Shown here: piece after piece, positions 30,020 to 31,808 of the stretch
Layout: every line of letters starts with the position of its first letter
Position numbering within the stretch: position 1 is the first letter of the stretch
DNA from: Prochlorococcus sp. AG-459-B06
GTDB lineage: Bacteria > Cyanobacteriota > Cyanobacteriia > PCC-6307 > Cyanobiaceae
DNA length: 53,189 nucleotides
Assembly (NCBI GenBank): GCA_003209475.1
Contig: QCQY01000009.1
Span: 1-53,189, forward strand
Direction of reading: 5' to 3'
The notes under the pieces: model-generated
Told to the model about the DNA's origin: nothing
The model's input: only the letters and a program-made list of their open reading frames with translations
Database searches by the model: none
Made by a program: the position numbers and the translations under genes

Positions 30020-30970
30020 TTAGAGATTTTGAATTCCTTTTACAGCTTTTATTAATTCGAGAGTAATACCTTTTTCACTCATTGAATGACCAGCATCATT
30101 AACAATAATTAATTCAGAATTCTTTAATTTCTTATTTAGATCCCAAGCACTCCTAACAGGACATACAACGTCATACCTCCCTTGAATTATTTTTGTTGGA
30201 ATCGATTCTATTACTCTTATATTTTTCAAAATAAAATCATCTTCTAAGAAAATATTATTAATAAAATAATGACATTCGATCCTTGCAAAGGCATCTGAAA
30301 AAGAATTAACTTCAGACTTATCAAAATCAAATTTTTTATTTATTAAATGACTAGTTGAGAGTTCCCATTTTGTCCAAGCTGCCGCTGCTTTTGATCTAAG
30401 ATTTGCATCTGAAGATATTAGATATTTATAAAAAGAACTTATTAAATCATTTCTTTCTTCTTTTGGTATTACAGAAATATATTCTTCAAATTCATCAGGG
30501 AATATCTCACTTGCACCATATTGATAGAACCACAATAATTCAAACTTTCTACATAAAAATATTCCTCGCAAAGTTAAGCTGATAACTCTTGAGGGATTCT
30601 TAATCGCATATACAAGCGAAAGTGTTGAGCCCCAAGACCCACCAAACAAATGCCAAGTATCTATTTTTAAAAGAATCCTTAATTTCTCAATATCATCAAC
30701 TAAATGATTGGTTGTATTTTCTTTTAATTCGGAGAAAGGAGTTGAAGAACCGCAACCTCTTTGGTCAAATTGAATAATATCGAATATATCTGGATCAAAG
30801 TATCTTCTATATCTTGGTTGACTTCCTCCTCCTGGACCTCCATGAATAACAAGAATTTTTTTGCCATTTGGATTACCAGATCTTTCCCAATAAATAGTAT
30901 GAATATCACTTACTTGTAAAAACCCTTTTTCACGTACTTCAATTTTCGGAAACAAGACTTGATCTTTCAT
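30020..30970 (-). CDS. pip: Proline iminopeptidase
   Basis: The 316-residue alpha/beta hydrolase removes N-terminal proline from peptides. It carries the oxyanion loop VIHGGPGGGSQPRYRRYFDP, the nucleophile elbow HLFGGSWGSTLSL, the acid in IIQGRYDVVCPV and the His in VNDAGHSMSE, all in the expected order and spacing of peptidase family S33. Length is normal. Confidence 0.95.
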   Translation of the reverse strand: MKDQVLFPKIEVREKGFLQVSDIHTIYWERSGNPNGKKILVIHGGPGGGSQPRYRRYFDPDIFDIIQFDQRGCGSSTPFSELKENTTNHLVDDIEKLRILLKIDTWHLFGGSWGSTLSLVYAIKNPSRVISLTLRGIFLCRKFELLWFYQYGASEIFPDEFEEYISVIPKEERNDLISSFYKYLISSDANLRSKAAAAWTKWELSTSHLINKKFDFDKSEVNSFSDAFARIECHYFINNIFLEDDFILKNIRVIESIPTKIIQGRYDVVCPVRSAWDLNKKLKNSELIIVNDAGHSMSEKGITLELIKAVKGIQNL

Positions 30971-31049: not shown

Positions 31050-31077
31050 AAAAAGGACTGTTTGTACAGTCCTTTTT
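31050..31077. terminator. Strong bidirectional hairpin terminator
   Basis: AAAAAGGACTGT (31050-31061), loop TTGT, ACAGTCCTTTTT (31066-31077): a 12-bp perfect stem flanked by A and T tracts. It would stop a minus-strand RNA coming from the 31100-31400 region before pip, or a plus-strand message from the left. Only the minus-strand direction has a plausible transcript. Confidence 0.75.
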
Positions 31078-31130
31078 AATATTTGATTTCCTTCTTACAG
31101 GATATAAAATTACATATTTTAAAGTCTATT

Positions 31131-31405
31131 TACTCATAAACCTAGAATACGTGAATTCGGGGATTTCTCTCGATAATTTCAGTCCCTATTGTCGCTAGTA
31201 ATTATAGAGCGAAGTCTTATCAGACTAATTGATTGAACTTTAATTTTCGAATAATCCCATTCTCAGGAATACGCTTCCTATATTTTGGAATTTACTAAAT
31301 TTCAGGCGGATTATCAATCATTTAGATTGCCTCCGAACTCAACATTTATAAATTACTCCTTTTTATATTTTCAGTAAATCCGTAAATATGCTGATTTACT
31401 TTTTT
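31131..31405 (+). ncRNA. Candidate structured non-coding RNA, ~275 nt
   Basis: A protein-free, locally GC-richer stretch whose ends pair. ATAAA (31136-31140) faces TTTAT (31345-31349), and GAATTCGGGG (31153-31162) faces CTCCGAACTC (31331-31340) with one mismatch. Inside are hairpins GGGA-TCCC (near 31161), CGCT-AGCG, AGTCT-TATC-AGACT, AGGAA-TACGC-TTCCT and CAATC-ATTTA-GATTG. A plus-strand terminator follows. TATAAA at 31103 may be the -10 box. The strand is inferred from the terminator. I could not match it to tmRNA, 6S, RNase P or SRP RNA. Confidence 0.5.
31373..31405 (+). terminator. Intrinsic terminator ending the candidate ncRNA
   Basis: AGTAAATC (31373-31380), a 12-base loop, GATTTACT (31393-31400), then a T run to 31405. 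The 8-bp stem is AT-rich but perfect. No plus-strand protein gene precedes it. Confidence 0.55.
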
Positions 31406-31482
31406 CTTAAATTGTAAGAGGATTTTAATGATCCTTTGTTTTTTAATAGAGAAATATCAAAATTAAAGTCTTGATCCCTTAT

Positions 31483-31667: not shown

Positions 31668-31808
31668 TTACCAATCAGGGTAATTAAAATCTCCTCCAAT
31701 AGGTTCTTCATAAAATTCCCCTTCTTTTAAACCTTTATCATATTTTTCAATTATCTTTTTATAAGAAGCTATTGAGGGAAATAAATCTCCTATATAAATG
31801 GGTTCCAT
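31668..31808 (-). CDS. Small acidic protein, 46 residues
   Basis: The 46-residue frame reads MEPIYIGDLFPSIASYKKII, then EKYDKGLKEGEFYEEPIGGD and ends FNYPDW. Tight spacing to the downstream 60-residue gene and a biased, non-random composition support it. Function unknown. Confidence 0.55.
   Translation of the reverse strand: MEPIYIGDLFPSIASYKKIIEKYDKGLKEGEFYEEPIGGDFNYPDW

Follow-up and report, generated by a model that had tools for sequence, protein, structure and literature searches.

The stretch of DNA analysed here (the window) comprises 53,189 nucleotides of Prochlorococcus sp. AG-459-B06. An Rfam scan matched RF02360 at 31118-31343 on the plus strand; the hit scores 258.4 bits, where the cut-off is 40, and spans model positions 1-226 of 226. 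The Rfam title of this family is Yfr8, "Cyanobacterial functional RNA 8/9." An earlier note on the same DNA had proposed a distinct, isolated, structured RNA gene of unassigned class. The first part of that proposal is supported, and RF02360 is the only Rfam family to reach its cut-off at the segment. The second part fails, because a full-length match to a known class is the refuting outcome that the note itself had named. Taken by itself, the assignment of the segment to the Yfr8/Yfr9 locus is practically certain, and the Rfam scan settles that the find is a further genomic copy of an RNA already known and annotated. The earlier note was right about what the RNA is not. RNase P, SRP, and 6S RNA had no Rfam match at the curated cut-off in the segment. 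ARAGORN found no tmRNA in the window, only tRNA-Tyr and tRNA-Thr. As the note had said, the segment has no convincing protein frame; its plus-strand frames of at least 20 codons are of 21 and 30 codons, and both start with TTG. The features of the locus are collected in Table 1.

Table 1. Features at the Yfr8/Yfr9 locus, in window coordinates
Feature	Position	Strand	Basis or remark
Prolyl aminopeptidase (pip)	30020-30970	minus	TIGR01249, 396.3 bits; downstream of Yfr8, same strand
Intrinsic terminator, bidirectional; Yfr8 ends here on the minus strand	31050-31077	both	12-pair stem on both strands
Yfr8-equivalent RNA, about 290 nt	31343 to about 31054	minus	Position transferred from MED4; conserved fold stronger than that of Yfr9
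Likely -10 element of Yfr9, TATAAAAT	31103-31110	plus	Read from the sequence; 8 nt before the transferred start
Yfr9-equivalent RNA, about 290 nt	31119-31408 (Rfam core 31118-31343)	plus	RF02360 and MED4 comparison of 290-nt segments
Candidate micro-ORF M-I-D-N-P-P-E-I-stop (8 codons), in the Yfr8 5' hairpin	31295-31321	minus	Sequence conservation
Predicted Yfr8 5' hairpin, GGAGG paired with CCGCC of two proline codons	31295-31343	minus	Consensus fold
Yfr8 Shine-Dalgarno GGAGG	31330-31334	minus	In 160 of 161 loci an ATG follows at 8-11 nt
Yfr9 terminator hairpin and T-run	31374-31405 (hairpin 31374-31399, then TTTTTT)	plus	Fold
Two small frames, 63 and 46 aa	31483-31674 and 31668-31808	minus	No Pfam or NCBIfam match

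The genome that we take to be MED4 (G033) has its RF02360 match at 339952-340177 on the minus strand. The pair was published in 2008 from northern blots and 5' RACE in MED4, with Yfr8 at 339952..340241 and Yfr9 at complement(339887..340176) (Steglich et al., PMC2518516). Each RNA is 290 nt long, with shorter forms of 180 and 220 nt, and both strands are transcribed. The minus-strand match and these coordinates show that the Rfam model runs in the Yfr9 direction. Therefore, the plus strand of the window is Yfr9 and the minus strand is Yfr8, antisense to Yfr9 across about 225 nt if the MED4 overlap is transferred. The plus-strand RNA of the earlier note is thus real and is Yfr9, and the ends proposed for it differ by no more than about 12 nt from those mapped for Yfr9 in MED4; the antisense partner, Yfr8, had been overlooked.

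By position, the homologous 290-nt segments of both strands finish at terminator hairpins. The bidirectional terminator described on the left in the earlier note is a single stem detected on both strands. It is conserved in an alignment of 151 HL-type rows and fits the position of the MED4 Yfr8 end. A terminator scan returned 2 sites versus 0.3 expected from shuffles. This simple scan wants G+C-rich stems and missed the right-hand terminator; that terminator, also claimed before, is present in the predicted fold and coincides with the published Yfr9 end. The two ends of the segment do pair as had been stated, GAATTCGGGG with CTCCGAACTC forming 9 of 10 pairs with one G-U and one A-C mismatch, and read directly the pairing is equally good on the opposite strand. 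The element TATAAAAT is conserved in the HL alignment and is likely to act as the -10 element of Yfr9. A promoter scan returned 2 sites versus 5.6 expected, which is below chance, so we count it as no evidence.

As DNA, the right-hand terminator is a palindrome upstream of the Yfr8 start. It is kept in divergent copies and in the peptide-type copies described below, several of which have no T-run, so no standard terminator is possible there. The palindrome could be a protein-binding site. An exact form of the pattern, which misses the window, MED4, and G104, was searched in eight genomes and occurred at nine sites in five of them. All nine are at Yfr8/Yfr9-family loci, so these genomes gave no sign of a wider regulon.

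RF02360 was present in 210 of 266 genomes of the genus (78 of 87 among the better ones) and in 62 of 400 sampled genomes of the family, all within 1 of 59 genera; the filters of both searches lose some weak matches. HL-type copies occur in 202 genomes, which is the 210 matches less 8 that we label HNLC-type, a group of divergent copies. Five divergent genomes are HNLC1, HNLC2, AH-321-J17, AH-287-J03, and AH-321-P05, and further ones are G034, G255, and G259. We examined 161 loci with 123 distinct cores, made up of 151 HL-type loci (the window included) and 10 divergent loci. A blastn search of 31050-31410 against phage and plasmid collections gave no match at an E value of 1e-5. A pattern scan of viral contigs returned four stretches, which were discarded; they had no Rfam match, and by eye their flanks were unlike Yfr8/Yfr9. 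Among eight checked genomes lacking an RF02360 match, six had no pip hit and G174 had residues 56-316 only. G104, also lacking a match, has a peptide-type relative, and its pip is 78% identical. The RNA has the 63-aa frame as a neighbor in 136 of the 160 fetched loci and the 46-aa frame in 127.

Single-sequence folding was modestly more stable than chance. The z score was -2.02 for 31131-31405 on the plus strand (8 of 200 shuffles folded as well), -1.56 for 31118-31343 on the plus strand (11 of 200), and -2.52 for 31118-31343 on the minus strand (3 of 200). Comparative support was stronger. For 24 HL representatives and 60 column shuffles, the consensus fold was -35.4 kcal/mol (z of -5.6) on the Yfr8 strand and -24.4 kcal/mol (z of -3.0) on the Yfr9 strand. 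Adding five HNLC-type representatives gave z scores of -6.2 and -4.5, and nine HNLC-type copies alone gave -5.8 and -4.3, for the Yfr8 and Yfr9 strands, respectively. Three loci (L160, L034, and L052) were excluded from the fold sets and from all counts of 158. The published RNAz values are -4.64 with a class probability of 0.9996 for Yfr8 and -2.54 with 0.68 for Yfr9 (PMC2518516). Compensatory base changes, which the earlier note had proposed as a check, are present but few, with two pairs on the Yfr8 strand and one on the Yfr9 strand in the 24 HL representatives and five and three when the HNLC-type was added. A comparison of G-U with A-C cells between the strands showed no decisive preference; the set termed "all HL unique" in the compensatory and strand comparisons has 149 rows with duplicates kept, and its structure comes from the first 60. 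Both strands fold better than their controls. The preference for the Yfr8 strand is a matter of degree. It comes mainly from predicted fold energies against column shuffles and from the published RNAz values. The earlier note had preferred the plus strand. In MED4 both strands are transcribed, and the better conserved fold sits on the minus strand.

Steglich et al. reported a 44-aa frame in Yfr9 of MED4 and three other strains that is lost in MIT9312 and MIT9215 (PMC2518516). Since the authors report such losses, we did not treat a Yfr9 frame as defining the family. We found no 44-aa frame in the 290-nt MED4 Yfr9. Its longest stop-to-stop frames have 40 and 39 codons, the former starting with TTG and the latter having no ATG, GTG, or TTG at its opening. 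We took the 40-codon frame as the published one; the intended frame could be either. It has at least 40 codons in 36 of 158 loci and at most 8 in 115 of 158, and in the window 4 codons precede its stop. The second frame has 40 codons from stop to stop in the window, where a TTG start gives 30. Neither frame has a coding signal in the 24 HL representatives (pN/pS of 1.10 and 1.86). A conserved Yfr9 peptide therefore appears unlikely as a general feature.

The 5' end of Yfr8 reads GTTGAGTTCGGAGGCAATCTAA-ATG in the window. The one locus outside the Shine-Dalgarno count in Table 1 (L052) is cut off before the Shine-Dalgarno and has the same frame. The Shine-Dalgarno followed by M-I-x-x-P-P-E-I-stop is present in 159 of 161 loci, and L160 encodes a longer peptide. 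Indels between the Shine-Dalgarno and the AUG leave the spacing workable, at 8-11 nt. Identity between the window and five HNLC-type representatives is 88-92% over the first 49 nt of Yfr8 and 65-69% over the remainder. In an alignment of 25 of 35 selected rows covering both types, every column varies except those of GGAGG, ATG, CC.CCTGA, and three single bases; GGAGG is invariant in all 25 rows, six peptide-type relatives among them. Codon 4 of the micro-ORF varies among S, N, R, I, and D, and codon 3 between D and E. The Shine-Dalgarno is predicted to be mostly paired, with a mean unpaired probability of 0.24 in the window and 0.21-0.64 in 29 representatives, and the AUG is predicted to be more open (0.66 in the window and 0.16-0.83 overall); these are raw, unshuffled values. 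Pairing with the Shine-Dalgarno would also explain the conservation of CCNCC. The micro-ORF had no coding signal in the ordinary family. Its pN/pS was 0.44 in 24 HL representatives, with very few changes, and 1.39 in 29 representatives once the HNLC-type was added, so there is no sign of selection on the peptide in this set. PPE is a ribosome-stalling motif that is relieved by EF-P. We found no mention of the Shine-Dalgarno or micro-ORF in the available part of Steglich et al. 2008 (PMC2518516) and no report of the micro-ORF in the open-access literature on Yfr8, Yfr9, and RF02360; subscription papers and supplements lie outside that scope, and it may be in print there. The fresh point, which comes from comparison of genomes only, is a conserved putative ribosome-binding site and tiny frame on the strand opposite the one chosen in the earlier note.

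In six diverged Yfr8 relatives (HNLC1, HNLC2, three related assemblies, and G104), this frame is lengthened to 23-30 aa. Four of these peptide-type loci (L160, L161, L162, and L163) came from HNLC-type genomes through weak RF02360 matches below the cut-off, and those of G024 (L202) and G104 (L171) came from a peptide profile. All carry AAGGAGG, an ATG, and a frame of the form M-x-x-N-P-P-E-...-E-K-P-R-M-G-..., and their longer peptides are charged, not hydrophobic. Over the gapless first 22 codons, pN/pS was 0.33 in this frame; the other two sense frames gave 0.91 and 1.52, and the antisense frames 0.68-1.42. None of 500 site permutations gave a value as low as 0.33; the six sequences represent few lineages and are not independent. 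Because these HNLC-type and G104 relatives encode a longer peptide, the micro-ORF probably has a common origin with a translated frame. In all six loci, the stop is followed on the same strand by Yfr10 (RF02362), about 280-470 nt away, which hints at shared origin or regulation. In MED4, Yfr10 is 6.5 kb from Yfr8. Five of the six genomes also have an ordinary RF02360 copy, and G104 has none at the search threshold. HNLC1 (G024) has three copies on its contig C1 (207827, 220354, and 684257), two of them ordinary and 12.5 kb apart and one peptide-type. Two of the six peptides were submitted to Pfam and NCBIfam, with no match. The peptide profile gave nothing convincing in MED4 (best E value of 0.044), and its best E value outside the genus was 0.011 in the 400-genome sample. 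Profile hits beyond the six relatives were all rejected. Among them were loci with 53-aa-type frames (E values of 1e-4 to 0.1); in the six of these that were inspected, the frame lies antisense to a long gene, apparently for a metal-binding transport protein.

How might the two RNAs work? We give an even chance to a translation-control mechanism in which Yfr8 is the mRNA-like partner and Yfr9 the antisense regulator. Two RNAs of about 290 nt would run in opposite directions through the same 225 bp or so, each ending at its own terminator. The Shine-Dalgarno at the start of Yfr8 would be sequestered in a hairpin through pairing with CCNCC of two proline codons, and the AUG that follows could start the micro-ORF M-I-x-x-P-P-E-I. 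Yfr9 would cover the Yfr8 start region, and its pairing would block or destabilize Yfr8, as in the antisense control of type I toxin-antitoxin mRNAs. Given the Shine-Dalgarno on Yfr8, an mRNA-like RNA under antisense control would be the simplest reading. The decay values reported for MED4 count in its favor, with a longer-lived mRNA-like Yfr8 (19.7 min) and a shorter-lived antisense Yfr9 (6.9 min) (PMC2897979). So do the stronger conserved fold on the Yfr8 strand, the widely kept Shine-Dalgarno and ATG, the coding signal in the six relatives, and its absence from the Yfr9 frames. Counting against it, Yfr9 rises 1-3 h into phage infection of MED4 and Yfr8 stays constant, and Steglich et al. 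placed their candidate peptide in Yfr9 (PMC2518516). Eight codons are also very short, the ordinary micro-ORF appears to be without peptide-level selection, the longer peptides are charged, and compensatory base changes are few. We are doubtful of an extended version, in which Yfr8 would be a tiny translated gene controlled by the hairpin and the antisense RNA. Here, a single lineage would span two forms, a 23-30 aa peptide (N-P-P-E ... K-P-R-M-G) next to Yfr10 in HNLC-type Prochlorococcus and an eight-codon Pro-Pro-Glu minigene in high-light strains. The role of the minigene would lie in ribosomes starting or stalling on it and not in the peptide, with the rise of Yfr9 after phage infection as the switch. 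The absence of peptide-level selection in the ordinary family would be compatible with a minigene indifferent to its peptide, and it lends the minigene no support.

It is quite possible, though short of an even chance, that Yfr8 is a purely non-coding structured regulator, with its Shine-Dalgarno, AUG, and stop kept through the 5' hairpin and with Yfr9 as a sponge or degradation partner. The conserved fold on the Yfr8 strand, the predicted pairing of the Shine-Dalgarno with the proline codons, the pN/pS of 1.39, and the unconserved codon 4 are all consistent with this. However, indels that keep the Shine-Dalgarno-to-AUG spacing are harder to fit to it, as are the diverged relatives, in which the Shine-Dalgarno, AUG, and N-P-P-E persist, synonymous changes occur, and a coding signal is present. 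Proline codons could also make Yfr8 a leader or attenuator of pip that senses the supply of proline or proline peptides, with the 31050-31077 terminator as the attenuator. We regard this as very unlikely, even though two such codons are adjacent in the micro-ORF and 149 of 160 fetched loci have pip on the same strand, downstream of Yfr8. The 11 exceptions are the 10 divergent loci and L034, where the contig stops at the RNA. Since pip is adjacent in none of the 10 divergent loci, and lies elsewhere on the contig in HNLC1 (G024) and HNLC2 (G026), the idea was rejected for those lineages. Moreover, the micro-ORF is about 220 nt away from the terminator, and Yfr8 of MED4 is a discrete RNA of at most 290 nt. 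Least credible of all is the type I toxin-antitoxin pair with a toxin peptide in Yfr9 that was proposed in 2008 (PMC2518516). The antisense arrangement and the early induction of Yfr9 by phage in MED4 speak for it, but the 44-aa frame was not found, and the 40-codon frame is mostly broken and has no coding signal.

These results correct the picture of an antisense pair that responds to phage and has been little studied, in Prochlorococcus, a dominant ocean phototroph. The Yfr9 frame is mostly broken and has no coding signal, the Shine-Dalgarno and start codon of the opposite RNA are conserved, and in a group of Yfr8 relatives a small peptide is encoded that appears to be under selection. The choice between a toxin-antitoxin system and a regulatory RNA is thereby narrowed to a specific test of one start codon.

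Type I toxin-antitoxin systems such as hok/sok and tisB combine a longer-lived mRNA that has a sequestered Shine-Dalgarno with an overlapping, shorter-lived antisense RNA, and they encode a hydrophobic toxin. Steglich et al. named both systems (PMC2518516). Yfr8/Yfr9 would resemble them in its mRNA-like RNA, its predicted Shine-Dalgarno sequestration, and its overlapping antisense RNA, the overlap being transferred from MED4. However, it has no hydrophobic toxin peptide, only an eight-codon micro-ORF and charged relatives of 23-30 aa. Dual-function small RNAs, with SgrS/SgrT and RNAIII as examples, offer another likeness, in that a structured RNA may also carry a putative small frame; for Yfr9, the comparison with RNAIII and SgrS was drawn by Steglich et al. 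(PMC2518516). The closest system is Yfr8/Yfr9 of MED4 itself, which the window matches over the full family model, in its ends by position, in its antisense layout, and in its adjacent pip, and from which it differs in that the 40-codon, started Yfr9 frame of MED4 is cut short.
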